Below are positions 20,707 to 30,912 of a stretch of 64,000 nt of DNA, piece after piece. The position numbers were made by a program, and so were the translations under genes. The DNA is from Marinobacter sp. (lineage in GTDB: Bacteria > Pseudomonadota > Gammaproteobacteria > Pseudomonadales > Oleiphilaceae), in the NCBI GenBank assembly GCA_014359475.1, contig JACIZI010000001.1, forward strand, positions 186,001 through 250,000. The letters are read 5' to 3'. Every line of letters begins with the position of its first letter. Position 1 is the first letter of the stretch. The notes beneath the pieces are model-generated. The model ran no database searches and had not been told where the DNA came from. It saw only the letters and a list, made by a program, of their open reading frames with translations.

Positions 20707-21624
20707 ATGCAGCCGTTTCATTCCGCCTTTCTGTTCATCGCCGCACTGCTGAGCTTTCTTCTGCTGACTGCAGGCCCCGTCGCAGCGGCAGACCATTCGA
20801 AAAGCTATACCCTCTGGTACCGCAACTACGACAGTGGTGCCGTTCGGTCTTTGCTTGAACTGGCCTTGAATAAGACCCCCGAGTATGGTGACTACCGGTT
20901 ACTGCGCAGTGACGAAATGGCCCAGGGCCGGGCCCTCCGGGAGCTGGCCCGAAAAGAGTCCGGCTCACTGGACATCGCTACCGTTGCGACCACGCTGGAG
21001 CGGGAACAGCAACTCAATGCCGTACCGGTGCCGATCGATGGCGGCCTGCTCGGGTTCCGGGTATGTGTGACAACGCCGGAAAAACTGGAGAGGTTTGAGG
21101 GCATCGCCTCCCTTGAAGATCTGCGCAACAGGGGTATCGTGATCGGCCAGGGAGCACACTGGCCGGACACGCCCATTCTTGAGGCAGCCGGTATACCGGT
21201 GGTCACCCATTCCCGCTACGAGGTGTTATTCGGGATGCTTGAGAAAGGACGCTTCGACTGCTTTGCCCGCGGTGTCAGTGAGGTACTTTACGATCTCGAG
21301 CGACACGCCAACAAGGACCTGGTAATTGAACCGGATCTGTTGATCGCCTACCCCATGCCTTCCTTTTTCTTCACCGCGCCCGACGACCATGAGACCGCCC
21401 AACGTATTCAGCTAGGCCTGGAGCGGGCCATCAAGGATGGCAGTTTCGCGGTTTTTCTGCAGACCTGGTACGGCCGCCCGGTGAAGGAGCTGCATCTGAA
21501 CCGGCGCATTACCATTGAGTTGCCTAACCCTTATCTGCCAGAAGAATCCGCAATAATCGGCCGGCGCACCCTGGACGCACTGCGTCAGCGGATAGATACT
21601 TCGATACGCTTGTCAGACCTGTAA
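20707..21624 (+). CDS. Periplasmic substrate-binding-like protein
   Basis: A 305-residue exported protein with a clear signal peptide (about 1-28, ending PVAAADHSK). The mature part resembles family 3 extracellular solute-binding proteins, with two lobes and a GVSEVLYDLERH-type hinge region. No ABC permease or ATPase gene adjoins it, so it may work as a sensor or orphan binding protein. It lies between recQ and the nitrilase fusion gene, each with its own spacing. The ligand is not readable; fold assignment is moderate and is based on general resemblance. Confidence 0.65.
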   Translation: MQPFHSAFLFIAALLSFLLLTAGPVAAADHSKSYTLWYRNYDSGAVRSLLELALNKTPEYGDYRLLRSDEMAQGRALRELARKESGSLDIATVATTLEREQQLNAVPVPIDGGLLGFRVCVTTPEKLERFEGIASLEDLRNRGIVIGQGAHWPDTPILEAAGIPVVTHSRYEVLFGMLEKGRFDCFARGVSEVLYDLERHANKDLVIEPDLLIAYPMPSFFFTAPDDHETAQRIQLGLERAIKDGSFAVFLQTWYGRPVKELHLNRRITIELPNPYLPEESAIIGRRTLDALRQRIDTSIRLSDL

Positions 21625-23865: not shown

Positions 23866-24516
23866 ATGGCCAAGAAAGCCACTCCCCCCAGTGTTGACAA
23901 GATCGTCAAAAAAGTGAACAAGGAACTCGAGAAAACCGCCCGGCAGATTGAAAGCCTGATTAATGATGCCCTGAAACAGCTGGACGCCCTGCAGAACCAG
24001 ATTCACGAACCGATCCAACGGCTACTGAAAGAAGCCGACGAACTGCGGGAGCGGGAAATGAAGCGCCTGCATGACGAGTTCGAGCGCCGGCTGGGTGAAT
24101 TCCACGAGCTTCAGGGGACCGTCCTGGAGCGCCTGGGCCTGGCCTCCAAAGAAGCAGAAAAGAAAGTCGGGAAGCTGGCAAACAAGGCCAGCGACAAACT
24201 GCCCGGTACAGAGGGCAAGACCGCAGCGGCGCCAGCCAGCAAAACAACGGGCAAAAAGTCTGCAGCCAAAAAAACCACAGCAAAGAAAGCGGCCTCTGCC
24301 AGCTCCGCCGGGCCTGCAGCCAAAGCAGCGGACCATTCCGACCTGACCCGCGTCAAGGGCATTGGGCCTGCGACCGCGCAGAAGATGAAGAATGCCGGCA
24401 TCACCTCAATTGAGCAGATCGCGAATCCGGGCCCGGAAGACGAGGAAAAGCTTCAGGCATTCTCCAGCCTGAGAGGCTTCAGCACACTGCGTGAAGAAGC
24501 CAAGAAAGTCCTTTAA
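23866..24516 (+). CDS. Helical Lys/Ala-rich protein with C-terminal helix-hairpin-helix
   Basis: A 216-residue protein of unknown function. Residues 1-105 are amphipathic helix with coiled-coil character (KIVKKVNKELEKTARQIES), resembling phasins or phasin-like proteins. Residues about 105-155 are a low-complexity Lys/Ala linker (AAKKTTAKKAA), like histone-H1-type tails of some bacterial DNA-binding proteins. Residues about 158-216 form a helix-hairpin-helix unit (VKGIGPATAQKMKNAGITSIEQIANP). The start has CAGGAG upstream. Its TAA shares a base with the ATG of the SelD fusion (TAATG), which implies translational coupling. A DNA- or polymer-granule-associated role is possible but not shown. Confidence 0.72.
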   Translation: MAKKATPPSVDKIVKKVNKELEKTARQIESLINDALKQLDALQNQIHEPIQRLLKEADELREREMKRLHDEFERRLGEFHELQGTVLERLGLASKEAEKKVGKLANKASDKLPGTEGKTAAAPASKTTGKKSAAKKTTAKKAASASSAGPAAKAADHSDLTRVKGIGPATAQKMKNAGITSIEQIANPGPEDEEKLQAFSSLRGFSTLREEAKKVL

Positions 24517-26792
24517 TGCAGCAGAACGATCAGCCTGTATTACGGGATATTGTCCTGGTAGGCGGCGGGCACAGTCATGTAGGCGTCCTTAAACGCTTTG
24601 CCATGCAGCCGGTTCCGGGTGTGCGCCTTACGCTCATCTGCCGGGATACTCACACGCCCTACTCCGGCATGCTGCCCGGCTACGTGGCAGGTCACTACAG
24701 CTATGATGATGTCCACATCGATCTCAGCAAGCTGGCCGAGTATGCCGGAGCACGGTTTTACCGTGATGAGGTCATCGGGCTTGACCGCGCCAACCGCCGC
24801 ATAAAATGCCGGGGGCGGCCAGATGTCCCCTACGACATCCTGTCCATCAATATCGGCTCATCTCCCCGCGTATCGGAAGTGCCCGGTGCCTCAGAGTACT
24901 CGGTTCCTGTCAAACCCATCAACGGCTTCAACAGCCGCTGGCTGTCCCTGCTCCAGCGTATTGAGGATCATGCAGGACCGATGACCATTGCCGTGGTTGG
25001 CGGTGGCGCCGGCGGCGTGGAACTGACCCTGGCGATGCAGTATCGGCTGCAGCATGCGCTGGGCCGTGCGGGCAAGGATCCGGAGCTGGTGCGATTCCAT
25101 CTGTTTGATTCGTCAGACCAGATTCTGGCCACCCACAATCCGCGGGTCCGCAAGATTTTCCAGAACAAGCTGAGTGAGCGTGGGGTAATCATGCACCTGG
25201 GCTCCCCGGTCAGCCGTGTGGGCAATCAACGGCTTGAAACCGCTGCGGGTGAAACCCTGGAAGCGGACGAAGTGTTGTGGGTAACCCGTGCGGGTGGCCC
25301 GGCGTGGCTGGAGCAAACGGGGCTCGCACTGGATGACGGTGGCTTTATCCGGGTCAGGGATACACTGCAGACCGAAACCGACGAGACCATTTTTGCGGCC
25401 GGTGACATCGCCAACATGGTCAACCATCCCCGTGAAAAGGCCGGGGTGTTTGCCGTACGGCAGGGGCCGCCGCTGGCGGGTAACCTCAAACGGCTGGCCC
25501 GTGGCAAGCCGCCCAAGCCATTCCGCCCCCAGACCAGATGGCTGGCGCTGATCAGCACCGGTGATCAGTTCGCAGTCGCTTCGCGGGGCAAACATTGTTT
25601 TTCCGGTGCCTGGGTGTGGCGCTGGAAAGACTGGATTGACCGCCGGTTCATGGAGAAGTTTACCGACCTTCCGCCGATGGAGGAAACCGCTCGCCTACCG
25701 GACACTTCCGCAGCCCAGAATGCCGAAGAAGCGTCCCAGGCCATTTCAGCAGTGGCCATGCGCTGCGGAGGCTGTGGCGCCAAGGTGGGCAGTACCGTGC
25801 TGTCCCGGGCGCTGGGCAACCTGAATCCGATTGAGCGGGACGACATTATCGTGGGTCTGCATGCCCCCGACGATGCCGCCGTACTGCGGGTACCCCCGGG
25901 CAAGGCGGTGGTGCACACGGTGGATTTTTTCCGGGCGTTTATTGATGACCCCTATATTTTCGGCAAGGTGGCTGCCAATCATAGTCTGGGAGATGCCTTT
26001 GCCATGGGCGCAGAAGCTCAGAGTGCCACGGCCGTTGCCACGGTGCCCTATGGGATCGAATCGAAGGTGGAGGACGTCGTATTCCAGATGATGTCGGGTG
26101 CCGTGGAGGTCCTCAACGAAGCCGGTTGTGCGCTGGTGGGCGGGCACACTGGTGAAGGCAGGGAGCTCGCTCTTGGATTTGCCGTCAATGGCCTGATCGA
26201 TCCGGACAAGGTGATGAGCAAAGGTGGTCTCCGGGCCGGCGATGCCCTGATTCTTACCAAACCGATTGGTACTGGCACCCTGTTTGCTGCCCATGCACGC
26301 CTGGCGGCAAAAGGCCGCTGGATCGACTCTGCCCTCGCCTCCATGATCCAGTCTAACCAGACAGCCGCCCGGTGTTTGCTGGAATTCGGCTCCAGGGCCT
26401 GTACCGACGTGACCGGTTTCGGGCTGCTGGGTCATCTGGTGGAAATGACCCGTCCTTCGGGCGTGGATGCGCAACTGTCTCTCTCCGCAATTCCGGTGTT
26501 GCCCGGTGCCGAACAGACTGCAGCGGCGGGCATTCTGAGCTCCCTGCAACCGGCCAATATCCGGCTGCGGCGGGGTATCCGAAACCAGCAGGACTGGGTG
26601 CAACACCCCCGGTACCCGCTGATTTTCGATCCCCAGACCGCCGGCGGCCTGCTGGCCAGCGTGCCGGCAGAACGGGCCGGGGAATGCGTTCAACAACTGA
26701 AAGCTCTGGGCTACCCTCACACCGCCATTATTGGTCGGATCACGGCGCAGGATGAGCAGGGGCCGATTGAGCCCATCACCCTGACAGAGTAG
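24516..26792 (+). CDS. selD: Bifunctional FAD/NAD oxidoreductase - selenide, water dikinase
   Basis: A 758-residue fusion. Residues about 1-370 form a pyridine nucleotide-disulfide oxidoreductase-like domain (TIGR03169 type) with DIVLVGGGHSHVG, the second nucleotide fold AVVGGGAGGVELTLA and IFAAGDIANMVNHP. Residues about 405-755 are SelD, which makes selenophosphate from selenide and ATP. The catalytic Cys420 and Lys423 are in CGGCGAKVG, so this is a cysteine rather than a selenocysteine form. HTGEGRELALGFAVNG, DVTGFGLLGHL and DPQTAGGLLAS are further SelD blocks. The fused reductase may generate or deliver the reduced selenium; that is inference. It overlaps the 3' end of the convergent senB-like gene by 17 bp. 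Confidence 0.95.
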   Translation: MQQNDQPVLRDIVLVGGGHSHVGVLKRFAMQPVPGVRLTLICRDTHTPYSGMLPGYVAGHYSYDDVHIDLSKLAEYAGARFYRDEVIGLDRANRRIKCRGRPDVPYDILSINIGSSPRVSEVPGASEYSVPVKPINGFNSRWLSLLQRIEDHAGPMTIAVVGGGAGGVELTLAMQYRLQHALGRAGKDPELVRFHLFDSSDQILATHNPRVRKIFQNKLSERGVIMHLGSPVSRVGNQRLETAAGETLEADEVLWVTRAGGPAWLEQTGLALDDGGFIRVRDTLQTETDETIFAAGDIANMVNHPREKAGVFAVRQGPPLAGNLKRLARGKPPKPFRPQTRWLALISTGDQFAVASRGKHCFSGAWVWRWKDWIDRRFMEKFTDLPPMEETARLPDTSAAQNAEEASQAISAVAMRCGGCGAKVGSTVLSRALGNLNPIERDDIIVGLHAPDDAAVLRVPPGKAVVHTVDFFRAFIDDPYIFGKVAANHSLGDAFAMGAEAQSATAVATVPYGIESKVEDVVFQMMSGAVEVLNEAGCALVGGHTGEGRELALGFAVNGLIDPDKVMSKGGLRAGDALILTKPIGTGTLFAAHARLAAKGRWIDSALASMIQSNQTAARCLLEFGSRACTDVTGFGLLGHLVEMTRPSGVDAQLSLSAIPVLPGAEQTAAAGILSSLQPANIRLRRGIRNQQDWVQHPRYPLIFDPQTAGGLLASVPAERAGECVQQLKALGYPHTAIIGRITAQDEQGPIEPITLTE

Positions 26793-27768
26793 CCCTCTCC
26801 AGAGCGAGATCGATTGCCCGTAACAAACTGGCCTGCTCCCTTTCCGGGGTGAAACTTGCAGCCAGGGCCGCCACCCGTGCTTGCAGTGACGCCAGAAATT
26901 CCGGTTCCCACTCGGCCCGCAGCAGCAAATCGGCTAATGCCTGCTCATCCCTGACGGGAAAGTAGCCGGGATACGCTGTTCCCAGCAGACCGATATTGCC
27001 GGGGATCTCAGATGCAATAACGGGAATCCCGGCCCGGCAGGCTTCGGAAACCACATTGGCGCCGCCCTCCATCACTGAACTGATCACCATCAGCCGGGAG
27101 TCGAGCAGCAGGTTCATGGTCGCTTGCCTGTCCAGTTCGCCAACCCATTGAAACCGCTCATTGTCCGCCTCTTCCTGCTGTGCCAAGGCTGCCCATTGCT
27201 GGTTATGCGCCCGTCCCGCGGCGACGACGCGGATTCTGCTTTCAGGTGGCAGTTTACGGGCCGCCAGTGCAGCCCTCAGGGAGTCTTTTTCATCACGCAG
27301 GTGCCCTATAACGCTGACCAGAAATGGTTCCTCCGGGTCAGCGCCGCACGTAGTGTTCATGCACGATGCTGCGGGATGCGGTGCGGACTGCAGGACGGTG
27401 ACCAGCTTGTCCCGGAAAGGCTCCGGAATAGCCTGGCCTGCCAATCGGTGCAGGCCAATCAGGCTGTCCGCGAGAGCCATGGATCCCAGCGTGGCATCCG
27501 GGTAGCGGTGTTGGTGGTCGTATATGTCCGTGCCGGTGAGCGCGACCACCAGTGGCATATCAGGAAACAGATGGCGAATTTTCAGTATGTCCCCGTGGCT
27601 TCGCCAGGCATGCAGAGCCAGCACAAGATCACAGGCCTGGCCGGCGAAGGCGGTTTCCACGCTCACCTGATACCCCGCCCTTTCCAGCAAAACAGCCCAG
27701 CGTTCGGCAGTAGCCCGGTTGCCGGCACGGGAGCCGGGAGGAGCCGGGGTAATAATCAGGATATTCAT
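26776..27768 (-). CDS. senB: SenB-like selenosugar synthase (TIGR04348 glycosyltransferase)
   Basis: A 330-residue GT-B glycosyltransferase matching the pattern I associate with SenB/TIGR04348: PAPPGSRAGNRATAERWA at the N-terminus, LALHAWRS, VALTGTDIYDHQ, and the C-terminal nucleotide-sugar region MEGGANVVSEACRAGIPVIAS. SenB from the selenoneine pathway joins selenophosphate to a UDP-sugar to give a selenosugar. Location tail-to-tail with selD supports a selenium role. No selenoneine synthase (SenA, EgtB-like) gene is present within this window. The ATG at 27768 was preferred over the TTG at 27777, although neither has a strong ribosome site. Confidence 0.82.
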   Translation of the reverse strand: MNILIITPAPPGSRAGNRATAERWAVLLERAGYQVSVETAFAGQACDLVLALHAWRSHGDILKIRHLFPDMPLVVALTGTDIYDHQHRYPDATLGSMALADSLIGLHRLAGQAIPEPFRDKLVTVLQSAPHPAASCMNTTCGADPEEPFLVSVIGHLRDEKDSLRAALAARKLPPESRIRVVAAGRAHNQQWAALAQQEEADNERFQWVGELDRQATMNLLLDSRLMVISSVMEGGANVVSEACRAGIPVIASEIPGNIGLLGTAYPGYFPVRDEQALADLLLRAEWEPEFLASLQARVAALAASFTPEREQASLLRAIDLALERATLSG

Positions 27769-27902
27769 GTCATTCAATTGCTCGTCTTATTCCACCGCAC
27801 ACTGAGCCAGGGGCCCGCGGGTAGCGTAAAGCTGTTCAGTTGTGACCGGATTCACGATATCCTGAGCCACTTACGTAAAACACGGATGATAATGGAGCTT
27901 AC

Positions 27903-28781
27903 ATGATCCTGAACAATATACGGAAACTGATCGGTGCAGTAACCCTCGCCGCCATCTCCGCAACCGCCAGTGCGGCCCCGCCGTTTGTGTTCACCGCCAT
28001 TCCGGATGAGGATGAGACGAAACTGGTCGAGCGATTCCGGGGCGTAGCGGATTATCTTGAAGAGCAGCTTGGTGTTGAAGTGCGTTATATCCCGGTAAAA
28101 TCCTATGCCGCAGCGGTATCCGCCTTTCGTAACAATCAGGTCCAGCTGGCCTGGTTCGGTGGCCTTTCCGGGGTGCAGGCCCGCCGCCTGGTGCCGGGCT
28201 CTGAAGCTCTGGCCCAGGGCAAGGAAGACGTATCCTTCCACACTTATTTTATTGCCAATACCGCGACCGGTATGGAGCCGGTTGACACCCTGGGCGAGCT
28301 GGAAGGCAAGCTTGACGATCTGACCTTCACTTTTGGCTCCAAAGGCTCCACCTCCGGGCGCCTGATGCCCGAATATTACCTGCGCGAGACTTTCGGCAAA
28401 GCTCCGGAGGATATCTTTGCCCGGGTCGGTTTCAGTGGCAATCATACCCGTACATTGCGCCTGGTGGAGTCCGGTACTTATGATATGGGTGCCCTGAACT
28501 TCAAGGTCTGGGACAAGGAACTGGAAGCGGGCAACATCGACACCGATGCTGTCCGGATTGTCTGGAAAACGCCGGCCTATCCGGATTATCAATGGACCAT
28601 CCGCGGTGATGTGAACGAGCGTTACGGCCAGGGGTTCAAAGAGAAGGTTCGTCAGGCACTGCTCGAACTGGAAGACCCGGAACTGCTGGAAAGTTTTCCC
28701 CGGTCCGGCTTTATCCCGGCCAGCAACAAGGATTACGCACCAATTGAAGCTGTGGGCGAGCAGATCGGAATCCTGGATTGA
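27903..28781 (+). CDS. Selenate/phosphonate-type ABC transporter, substrate-binding protein
   Basis: A 292-residue periplasmic binding protein with a signal peptide (about 1-24, ending SATASA). The fold is PhnD-like: FTAIPDEDETKLVERFRGVADYLEEQL-type start (IPDEDETKLVERF seen), VQLAWFGGLSG and FGSKGSTSGRLMP. It resembles the putative selenate-binding family that NCBI models near SelD fusions (TIGR04553). The start has GGAG upstream. Its stop overlaps the ATPase start (TGATG). Location beside selD and senB makes a selenium oxyanion a better guess than phosphonate, but the ligand is inferred. Confidence 0.82.
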   Translation: MILNNIRKLIGAVTLAAISATASAAPPFVFTAIPDEDETKLVERFRGVADYLEEQLGVEVRYIPVKSYAAAVSAFRNNQVQLAWFGGLSGVQARRLVPGSEALAQGKEDVSFHTYFIANTATGMEPVDTLGELEGKLDDLTFTFGSKGSTSGRLMPEYYLRETFGKAPEDIFARVGFSGNHTRTLRLVESGTYDMGALNFKVWDKELEAGNIDTDAVRIVWKTPAYPDYQWTIRGDVNERYGQGFKEKVRQALLELEDPELLESFPRSGFIPASNKDYAPIEAVGEQIGILD

Positions 28782-29431
28782 TGGCGGGATTTGAACTGCG
28801 GGATCTGTCAGCATCCTTTGCGGGCAAGCGGGTCATTGGCCCGCTTTCACTGACCGTTTGGGAGGGTGAAAAAGTTGCCCTTGTGGGCAAGAGTGGTGCT
28901 GGCAAATCCACCCTGGTGAACCTCATCCACCAGCAGCTTGACCAGCAGACTTCCCTGGTTCCACAGGAACTGGGGCTGGTCAACGCCCTGCCGGTGTTCC
29001 ATAACGTCTTTATGGGCCAGTTGGACCAGCATCCTGCCTGGTACGCCACCCTGACGTTGATACGGCCTTTTGCCAGAGACCGTGAGGCGATCCGTTCGCT
29101 GCTTGCGGATCTGGACATGGCGGAGAAGCTCTGGACACCGTCGATGTCCCTGTCCGGCGGTCAGCGCCAGCGGGTGGCCATCGCCCGGGCGATCTGGCGG
29201 AACGCCTCCATATTGCTTGCAGACGAGCCTGTCTCCGCTCTCGACGGTCCCATGGCCCACCGGGTGATGCAGTTGCTGGTGGCAAAATTCGGGACCAGTG
29301 TCATCGCCTTGCACGATGTGGAGCTGGCCCTGCGCTACTGCAATCGCATCGTCGGCATTCAGGATGGCCATGTGGCCCTGGACGAGCCCAGCGAGCGCCT
29401 GCAGGCCTCTGACATCATGACACTCTACTGA
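28781..29431 (+). CDS. Selenate/phosphonate-type ABC transporter, ATP-binding protein
   Basis: The 216-residue ATPase of the importer. Walker A is GKSGAGKSTLVN, the Q-loop region LVPQELGLVNALPV, the signature LSGGQRQRVAIARA, Walker B ILLADEP and the H-loop VIALHDVELAL. The ATG at 28781 overlaps the binding-protein stop by one base. It is shorter than PhnC proteins (about 250-260), lacking some C-terminal residues. It works with the fused permease that follows 14 bp later. Confidence 0.9.
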   Translation: MAGFELRDLSASFAGKRVIGPLSLTVWEGEKVALVGKSGAGKSTLVNLIHQQLDQQTSLVPQELGLVNALPVFHNVFMGQLDQHPAWYATLTLIRPFARDREAIRSLLADLDMAEKLWTPSMSLSGGQRQRVAIARAIWRNASILLADEPVSALDGPMAHRVMQLLVAKFGTSVIALHDVELALRYCNRIVGIQDGHVALDEPSERLQASDIMTLY

Positions 29432-29445
29432 GTCCGGTTGGTCTG

Positions 29446-30912
29446 ATGCTGTCTTATCCCGTTGTCCGCACCAGTCTCCTTTTTGTCGCCATTGCGATCG
29501 GCGGATTGTTTTTCGCGGATATTGCAATTACCGCTTCCAATCCCTGGCGCGACCTGGGTAACTTCTTTCTGGGCGTGATGACCCCGGATTTCTTCAGCAC
29601 GGAAGGGCTGCTGACGGCCCTGCTGCGGACAGTGGCGTTTGCGTTTGTCGGTGTGGCCCTGGGCAGCGTATTCGGGTTTTTGCTCTCCCTGGTCTACGAC
29701 CGGCTACCGGTGCGCATCTTCAGTGCCTTTATCCGGGCCATCCATGAATTGTTCTGGGCCCTGATTTTTCTTCAGTTTTTCGGTTTTCACCCGCTGACAG
29801 GCGTATTGGCCATCGCCATTCCCTACGCCGGCATCTTTGCCAAGGTGTATTCGGAAATACTCGACGAAGCCGACCCGTCACCGGCCCGCACCCTGCCTCC
29901 CGGCACGGGCGCACTGGCCCGTTTTCTGTATACCCGGATACCTGACTGCTGGGACCAGATCCGTACCTATACCGCCTACCGCCTGGAGTGCGGGCTGAGA
30001 TCCAGCGCAATTCTCGGCTTTGTCGGCCTTCCGACGCTGGGCTTTTATCTGGAATCCTCCTTCTCCCAGGGCAGCTATTCCGAAGCCGGTGCGATGCTGG
30101 TACTTTTCTATGTACTGATTGCCACGATTCCCCTCTGGGTGCGCCCCCGTTTGTTGCCGGTCTACCTGGCCGGTGCACCTTTCTTTCTCGGGGAGGGGTT
30201 GCCAATTGTGTGGGGCAACGTGGCGCGCTTTTTTACCGAGGATATCGTGCCGGCCCCCATTCGCAGCGGAGAGGGTATCGAGGCATTGGGCAGCTGGTTT
30301 GGTGAGCTGATGTTACAGGCTGCCCTGCCCGGTATCTGGAACACCCTGATACTCACCCAGATAGCCCTGGTGGCCACCGGCATTCTCACGCTGCTGGTTT
30401 TTCCGCTGATTTCCAACCATTTTGGTGGGCCGGTGCGTCGCACTGCGGGGCATGTGTTCCTGGTGATCGCCCGTTCGACACCGGAATACATTCTCGCCTA
30501 TATACTGCTCCAGCTCTGGGGTCCATCCATGCTCCCGGCCGTGGTGGCACTGGCGCTCCACAACGGTGGCATTATCGGGCACCTGATCGGCCGGCAGACC
30601 AACGGCATCCGCCTCCGCCCGGACGCGCCCGTGGGGTTCCGTCGCTATAGCTGGGAGCTGGTGCCCCGGATATACCGCTCGTTTCTGGCATTCCTGTTTT
30701 ACCGCTGGGAAATCATCATGCGGGAAACCGCCATTCTGGGCATATTGGGCATTTACACACTGGGGTTCTATGTGGACAGCGCCATCCAGAATATCCAGTT
30801 CGACAAGGCCATAGTGCTGATCGTGATTACCGCACTGCTGAATATTGGCATTGACACCCTGGGCCGTTTCATCCGCCGGCGCCTGGCGCTGCAGACCATG
30901 CCCACCTGCTGA
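29446..30912 (+). CDS. Selenate/phosphonate-type ABC transporter, double permease
   Basis: A 488-residue inner-membrane protein made of two PhnE-like permease halves in one chain. The first half covers about 1-240 and the second about 270-488. Each has a cytoplasmic coupling-loop region (first: YSEILDEADPSPART; second: GRQTNGIRLRPDAP). About eleven to twelve hydrophobic segments are visible. In most phosphonate systems two separate PhnE chains or a homodimer are used, so the fusion gives a fixed pair. It is the last gene of the transport operon and is followed by a GC-rich hairpin. Confidence 0.87.
   Translation: MLSYPVVRTSLLFVAIAIGGLFFADIAITASNPWRDLGNFFLGVMTPDFFSTEGLLTALLRTVAFAFVGVALGSVFGFLLSLVYDRLPVRIFSAFIRAIHELFWALIFLQFFGFHPLTGVLAIAIPYAGIFAKVYSEILDEADPSPARTLPPGTGALARFLYTRIPDCWDQIRTYTAYRLECGLRSSAILGFVGLPTLGFYLESSFSQGSYSEAGAMLVLFYVLIATIPLWVRPRLLPVYLAGAPFFLGEGLPIVWGNVARFFTEDIVPAPIRSGEGIEALGSWFGELMLQAALPGIWNTLILTQIALVATGILTLLVFPLISNHFGGPVRRTAGHVFLVIARSTPEYILAYILLQLWGPSMLPAVVALALHNGGIIGHLIGRQTNGIRLRPDAPVGFRRYSWELVPRIYRSFLAFLFYRWEIIMRETAILGILGIYTLGFYVDSAIQNIQFDKAIVLIVITALLNIGIDTLGRFIRRRLALQTMPTC

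Follow-up and report, generated by a model that had tools for sequence, protein, structure and literature searches.

We analysed a 64,000-nucleotide stretch of a Marinobacter sp. genome (the window, positions 186001–250000 of contig C1) together with the whole source genome (3.69 Mb, 85 contigs, 99.8% complete). The window holds a contiguous selenium island made up of a SelD fusion gene, senB and a three-gene importer. Ten window proteins were searched against NCBIfam and Pfam. The island is very probably the front, selenium-uptake half of a pathway to ovoselenol, a reading that gives an orphan selenium island its place in a complete and testable pathway of Marinobacter. The features at issue are the following.

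24516–26792, plus strand: fusion of a flavin adenine dinucleotide/nicotinamide adenine dinucleotide (phosphate) (FAD/NAD(P)) oxidoreductase (TIGR03169) and a selenide, water dikinase, in the SelD/SenC role (profile matches, alignment to 3u0o)
26776–27777, minus strand: SenB selenosugar synthase (TIGR04348, 384.6 bits, cut-off 300)
27825–27863, no strand assigned: conserved intergenic block separating senB from the binding-protein gene, interpreted as divergent promoters that overlap (intergenic alignment)
27903–28781, plus strand: periplasmic binding protein, putatively for a selenium oxyanion (TIGR04553, 414.8 bits, cut-off 250)
28781–29431 (open reading frame (ORF) listed from a TTG at 28778), plus strand: PhnC-like ATPase of the ATP-binding cassette (ABC) importer (158.2 bits; PhnC cut-off 266.1)
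29446–30912, plus strand: fused, double-length PhnE-type permease (TIGR01097, 200.2 bits in two stretches, cut-off 216.7)
Contig C7, 65905–67239: OvsA selenoxide synthase gene (L009; score against 8u41, clade and signature)

All five island ORFs were present at these coordinates and fell into the expected families in the ORF list and the profile search. This agrees with the initial annotation, made from the letters of the window, which had described a SelD–oxidoreductase fusion, a SenB/TIGR04348 glycosyltransferase tail-to-tail with it and a PhnD/PhnC/fused PhnE-type importer. The fusion protein exceeded the cut-offs of both TIGR03169 (514 bits, cut-off 310) and the SelD model TIGR00476 (294.5 bits, cut-off 125) and stayed below that of TIGR04369, named 'fusion_not_SelD' (468.8 bits, cut-off 700). 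Its SelD half, aligned to the solved SelD 3u0o, kept the GCG-K site and the Asp-bearing motifs, residues that we take to have active-site roles. The glycosyltransferase lay within TIGR04348, and the tails of its gene and the fusion gene overlap by 17 bases. Alignment with the solved Variovorax paradoxus SenB showed N20, T23, K158 and E231 to be kept, the residues that matter in mutants of that enzyme according to the available text of PMC10891094; the EGGAHV motif of the solved protein reads EGGANV in the window. Within the importer, the binding protein was above its family cut-off, the permease matched the PhnE model in two stretches, and the ATG at 28781 of the ATPase frame overlaps the stop codon of the binding-protein gene. 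SenA and MnmH were absent from the window, as had been claimed, all matches of SenA/EgtB type and to MnmH lying on other contigs. The sequence of selenium uptake, activation to selenophosphate and selenosugar formation that had been predicted from this gene set also appears right, judging by the families represented.

The terminal enzyme

Searched against the whole genome, the SenA model NF041186 gave a single match above its cut-off, on contig C7 (430.6 bits, cut-off 420). Lower matches lay on C23 (336.9 bits) and, weakly, on C13 (two, of 41 and 30 bits). The C7 protein scored 702.4 bits against the solved OvsA 8u41 and 165.6–165.8 bits against two solved SenA sequences. In a 38-row tree of 19 of the 22 SenA hits from other SenB genomes, 7 EgtB-type proteins and 12 chosen OvsA sequences, it fell inside the OvsA clade of 12 rows (support 100/99). 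It carries the motifs YPFMSTLQF and RQAY, for which SenA rows have forms such as YADYSQPLF and RNYY. The OvsA chain 8ux5, taken to be an engineered active-site variant, departs from 8u41 exactly at these signature positions (Met to Tyr, Gln-Ala to Asn-Phe). By score, clade and signature, the C7 gene is an orthologue of OvsA, nearest among named ones to that of M. nauticus (87%), and no true senA was found in the genome. OvsA forms a C–Se bond on histidine. Because the SenA-model match proved to be OvsA, the predicted product is ovoselenol, not selenoneine.

Two outcomes had been offered by the initial annotation, a different selenium metabolite or a senA elsewhere in the genome. The first stands, with ovoselenol the likely metabolite, and the second we reject on the same score, clade and signature. 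Production of selenoneine is extremely improbable: the C7 match does pass the SenA cut-off, and hercynine could come from EgtD, which the genome encodes, but the identity of the C7 protein nearly refutes this outcome and the remaining SenA-model matches do not restore it. The other strong match, which also emerged from the genome-wide search for EgtB/SenA homologues that had been proposed, is an EgtB, scoring 546.5 bits against TIGR03440, with EgtD behind it, so that EgtD is explained by ergothioneine, and the two on C13 are weak. Ergothioneine is thus likely also made by the source organism, to judge from the EgtB–EgtD pair at C23:157947–160243 (L010). MnmH has its sole match in the genome on C12 (352.5 bits, cut-off 219.75).

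We take the pathway to be defined by SenB, SelD, OvsA and a mercaptohistidine-type N-methyltransferase; the first three and a TIGR04345 methyltransferase are all encoded in the source genome. Like the senABC selenoneine cluster of Variovorax paradoxus and relatives, this genome has SenB and a SelD (the SenC role), and unlike it, OvsA instead of a true SenA. Each of the 22 other SenB genomes in a class survey of 369 genomes matched the SenA model with at least 460 bits. NF041186 passes this OvsA as SenA (431 bits, cut-off 420); OvsA genes may be annotated as selenoneine synthase, and selenoneine and ovoselenol producers may be confused in databases. In some gammaproteobacterial metagenome-assembled genomes (L110, L111, L191, L193, L194, L195 and L200), OvsA and a SenA-like gene stand side by side, which suggests both selenium antioxidants in one organism. 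One of them, L195, is a Taylorina symbiont, apparently the same as G218; among these SenA-like genes, the SenA model was applied to the G218 copy alone.

Distribution and gene order in Marinobacter and relatives

The same 120 Marinobacter genomes, many of them drafts, were searched for SenB, OvsA, the methyltransferase and the binding protein. SenB was found in 104 and OvsA in the same 104, and neither in the other 16 (Fisher value 3e-20, which ignores relatedness), such that the pathway is apparently the norm in the genus. The two genes lay on different contigs in 79 genomes and on the same contig in 25, where they were at least 1.14 Mb apart in linear coordinates; in one genome (G484), ovsA was cut by a contig end. 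The senB gene adjoined the binding-protein gene in 103 of 104 genomes, with start-to-start distances of 995–1283 bases; in the exception (G463), the ATPase and permease genes remain at senB, and the gene for the binding protein has its place on a different contig. A wider region was compared for 13 SenB genomes of the genus (our own and 12 others), and the SelD fusion adjoined SenB in 11 of them; in G460, SelD has unfused size and stands as a gene of its own.

Scanning the genome collection with two OvsA queries gave 80 loci, mostly from Marinobacter. The sequence fetched around them included SenB at 8 loci, and at 29 of the 80 a methyltransferase followed OvsA directly. A comparison of neighbourhoods had been suggested; in Halomonadaceae the island carries ovsA and a methyltransferase gene beside the TIGR03169–SelD fusion, SenB and importer. 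Over the 8u41 fragment tested, the OvsA of Vreelandella utahensis (L183) is identical at 148 of 148 positions. Its locus reads permease, an ATPase-sized untyped gap and binding protein; on the opposite strand SenB, OvsA and methyltransferase; then a 193-residue ORF and the SelD fusion. Two further loci (L184, L185) have this order, and two others, partly covered (L186, L189), have it without the small ORF. The V. utahensis block is the window order with ovsA and the methyltransferase gene inserted between senB and selD. All of its SenB, SelD fusion, binding protein, permease, OvsA and TIGR04345 methyltransferase were matched in the source genome, where they are divided among three places instead of one block with an extra small gene before the SelD fusion. 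The V. utahensis methyltransferase lies beside OvsA, whereas that of the source genome is of OvoA type and on a contig separate from that of OvsA.

Stand-alone methyltransferases of TIGR04345 type come in two kinds within the genus (METHYLTRANSFERASE), with no genome holding both. The first kind (33 genomes) is directly beside OvsA in 33 of 33, across a gap of 16–47 bases. The second (68 genomes, 45–52% identity to the first-kind query) is remote from OvsA: among the 67 with an OvsA place, 26 have both genes on one contig, separated by no less than 236 kb, and the rest have them on different contigs. A stand-alone methyltransferase occurred in 100 of the 104 SenB/OvsA genomes and in 1 of the 16 lacking both (G458, 58% complete). 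That of the source genome, on C23, scored 319 bits against TIGR04345 (cut-off 170). In a 31-row tree, 10 rows of the remote kind and 4 OvoA-fused rows formed one clade (100/100) apart from 17 first-kind rows, which suggests that the original methyltransferase was displaced by an OvoA-derived one within the genus. We infer from its family, its co-distribution and its position in relatives that the methyltransferase of the source genome acts on the OvsA product. That it is a decayed OvoA was considered and rejected, as tblastn with the OvoA of L288–L291 found no OvoA N-terminal remnant upstream in L249; no OvoA-size match was found in the source genome at E 1e-20. The methyltransferase of G483 is identical to that of M. 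orientalis L143.

Pocket, spread and substrate of the importer

The closest solved relatives of the window binding protein are picocyanobacterial PhnD1 proteins (5LQ5, 5LQ8 and 7S6G, 42–44% identity). They share its family, the aligned fragments of 5LQ5 and 7S6G scoring 297 and 337 bits against TIGR04553 (cut-off 250). In Prochlorococcus PhnD, the ligand is contacted by Y46, S126, T127, S128, H158 and D205, capped by Y206, and the cap is held by D13 and N176, according to the available text of Bisson et al. (PMC5700983). All nine positions (D, Y, S, T, S, H, N, D, Y) are identical in the window protein. Y46, S126, T127, S128, H158 and Y206 were invariant in 78 aligned rows. D205, taken as the sign of a protonated ligand in the part of PMC5700983 available, is Asp in the window protein and in 59 of 76 non-redundant rows; it is Asn in the other 17, and we therefore do not accept it as proof of such a ligand. 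The pocket was likewise rejected as proof of a selenium ligand, since 6 of 7 relatives below the family cut-off, all 7 of which were aligned, keep the nine positions or differ solely by D205N; the seventh (L086) departs at D13, and none of the 7 had a selenium gene nearby.

Unlike the window protein, PhnD1 is published as a phosphite/phosphate binder and has tesA as its reported neighbour. According to the available text of Shah et al. 2023 (PMC10284923), it occurs in all 97 sequenced picocyanobacteria, prefers phosphite over phosphate and needs three oxygens in trigonal arrangement. Our own division of the values tabulated there gives phosphate/phosphite ratios of dissociation constants of ~6- to 52-fold for four Synechococcus proteins and at least 457-fold for Prochlorococcus. 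Two strains did not grow on phosphite and the ocean abundance of PhnD1 was not tied to phosphate, a situation that this text calls paradoxical and for which it proposes a constitutive phosphate transporter. The string 'selen' is absent from the main text of that paper.

Within Marinobacter, the importer is more widely spread than the ovoselenol pathway. The binding protein occurred in 116 of the 120 genomes, 12 of which lack SenB, and it adjoined the SelD fusion in 7 of the 11 SenB-less genomes with enough sequence (the twelfth being a short contig). Of 20 genomes checked, 19 have SelD, and because these include two without the binding protein (G439 and G449), the importer can be dispensed with. 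The TIGR04553 cut-off was exceeded in 15 of the 369 genomes of the class survey; a SelD, SenB or SenA gene lay within the compared stretch (up to 12 kb) in 9 of these, and tblastn found no selenium gene nearby in the other 6, nor in any of 7 class genomes with matches below the cut-off (one stretch covering just 3.7 kb). A match was present in 17 plasmid records; the regions of 11 were read, 10 of them annotated with an incomplete gene table, and 4 of the 11 had a selenium-gene context. In three Paracoccus plasmids (L300, L304, L306) the importer has formate dehydrogenase genes, fdhE and selA next to it, and a Sphaerotilus plasmid (L309:3412–8862) has mnmH, ATPase, permease, TIGR04553 binding protein and selD in an apparent operon. 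Six annotated regions had no selenium gene in their annotation, and neither tblastn nor reading of the longer ORFs found one in the unannotated Aeromonas region. Context thus ties the TIGR04553 family to selenium in several groups, though not everywhere. Viral contigs were also scanned with a fragment of picocyanobacterial PhnD1, in search of host contigs, and no relative turned up.

Like hydrogen phosphite, hydrogen selenite is a monoanion with three oxygens, and the two belong to one shape class. This likeness leads us to infer selenite import, with phosphite a mimic, and hydrogen selenite is most likely what the window importer carries. It is a tentative but serious possibility that TIGR04553 transporters generally, including picocyanobacterial PhnDCE (PhnD1), are hydrogen-selenite importers, for which phosphite is a near mimic in shape and charge. 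If so, the paradox of a high-affinity 'phosphite' transporter in strains unable to use phosphite would be resolved, and the disputed PhnD1 substrate gains a specific selenite-binding hypothesis. Three statements in the available text of PMC10284923 count against selenite as the cargo: WH8102 is cited as inducing PhnD1 under phosphorus deficiency, the conserved neighbour of picocyanobacterial PhnD1 is tesA, and a ligand screen gave shifts with phosphorus sources only.

The family name points to another selenium oxyanion, NCBIfam calling TIGR04553 'putative selenate'. Transport of selenate is nonetheless rather unlikely, since the studied relatives hold three oxygens trigonally under a tyrosine cap and the tetraoxo phosphate is bound more weakly than phosphite (PMC10284923 and PMC5700983, available text), and since position 205 of the window protein is the Asp read as a sign of a protonated ligand, albeit Asn in the 17 rows noted above. 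We consider it unlikely, too, that the importer is a phosphite or phosphate transporter and a chance neighbour of the selenium genes. Its nine pocket positions do equal those of Pm_PhnD, which binds phosphite with a dissociation constant of ~0.05–0.12 µM in the available source text, and both the constitutive phosphate transporter argued for in PMC10284923 and the phosphorus-deficiency response of WH8102 fit such a role. Chance is difficult to reconcile with a binding-protein gene that neighbours 103 of 104 senB genes, with the Sphaerotilus mnmH–importer–selD arrangement, with the three Paracoccus plasmids carrying selA and formate dehydrogenase genes, or with the lack of annotated phosphonate or phosphite genes in the ten annotated plasmid regions, as far as their incomplete gene table goes. 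None of the ten window proteins was a phosphonate or phosphite protein either, no whole-genome search for ptxD having been made. Of the two features that the initial annotation had named as speaking against a selenium importer, pocket residues of the phosphite type were therefore present and a phosphonate operon in the regions of relatives read was not.

Proposed pathway and control region

In the pathway we propose, the ABC importer would take up a selenium oxyanion, most likely hydrogen selenite, which would be reduced to selenide, perhaps aided by the oxidoreductase domain. By homology to characterised enzymes, SelD is expected to make selenophosphate and SenB to transfer selenium onto a uridine diphosphate sugar. 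OvsA, encoded on another contig, would form the C–Se bond on histidine, as its orthology suggests, and the stand-alone TIGR04345 methyltransferase from a third contig would N-methylate the product to ovoselenol. The presence of MnmH suggests that the same SelD may also serve 2-selenouridine formation in transfer RNA (tRNA).

Several observations weigh against assigning the island to ovoselenol. In the source genome, ovsA and the methyltransferase gene are unlinked to it, and the methyltransferase groups with the OvoA-fused ones and not with those beside OvsA (100/100). An OvoA-size protein is the only candidate for methyl transfer in 4 of the 104 genomes (G402, G418, G468 and G484). The co-occurrence of SenB and OvsA was observed in one genus and is uncorrected for relatedness. 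The ovsA match is spread over two frames in G422 and G467, where the SenB and binding-protein matches are open; the split may be a sequencing error or decay.

The island could instead be a general selenium supply for tRNA selenouridine, with SenB a passenger. MnmH is present in the genome, and the binding protein persists in 12 of the 16 genomes without SenB and OvsA, beside the SelD fusion in 7 of 11. We regard this as quite improbable for the island as a whole, because it explains neither the identical distribution of SenB and OvsA nor the gathering of the genes into one block in Halomonadaceae; if restricted to the importer and SelD, it agrees with the ovoselenol pathway. SenB, SelD fusions, OvsA and TIGR04553 are all known as named families, and ovoselenol itself was reportedly published by Kayrouz and colleagues in 2024, in work that may already describe the Halomonadaceae block. 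As far as the literature was searched, four points are new: the division of the pathway among separate places in this genus, the apparent exchange of its methyltransferase, the passing of OvsA by the SenA model, and the interpretation of the PhnD1 family as selenite importers. The search, outside which most subscription papers lay, found none naming TIGR04553 or linking selenite, phnD and selD, and papers on Prochlorococcus, selenium and PhnD showed no selenium–PhnD link by title.

The intergenic block at 27825–27863 was derived from an alignment of 43 intergenic pieces, in which our own piece and those of some other genomes occur twice. Within the SenB group, its pattern was matched at 39 of 43 loci (34 of 37 genomes), figures that are circular in that the pattern was derived from these loci; the misses are G416, G424 and G463, in the last of which the binding-protein gene has moved. 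The window matches at 27825 with two substitutions, and one SenB-less locus matches weakly. We read the block as putative face-to-face promoters that would couple the expression of senB and the importer. A regulon motif shared by senB and ovsA was rejected, with the pattern at 0 of the 80 OvsA loci. Upstream of the island, the ORF at 20707–21624 encodes a protein with an apparent signal peptide and no Pfam or NCBIfam match at E 0.001, which looks like a periplasmic binding protein.

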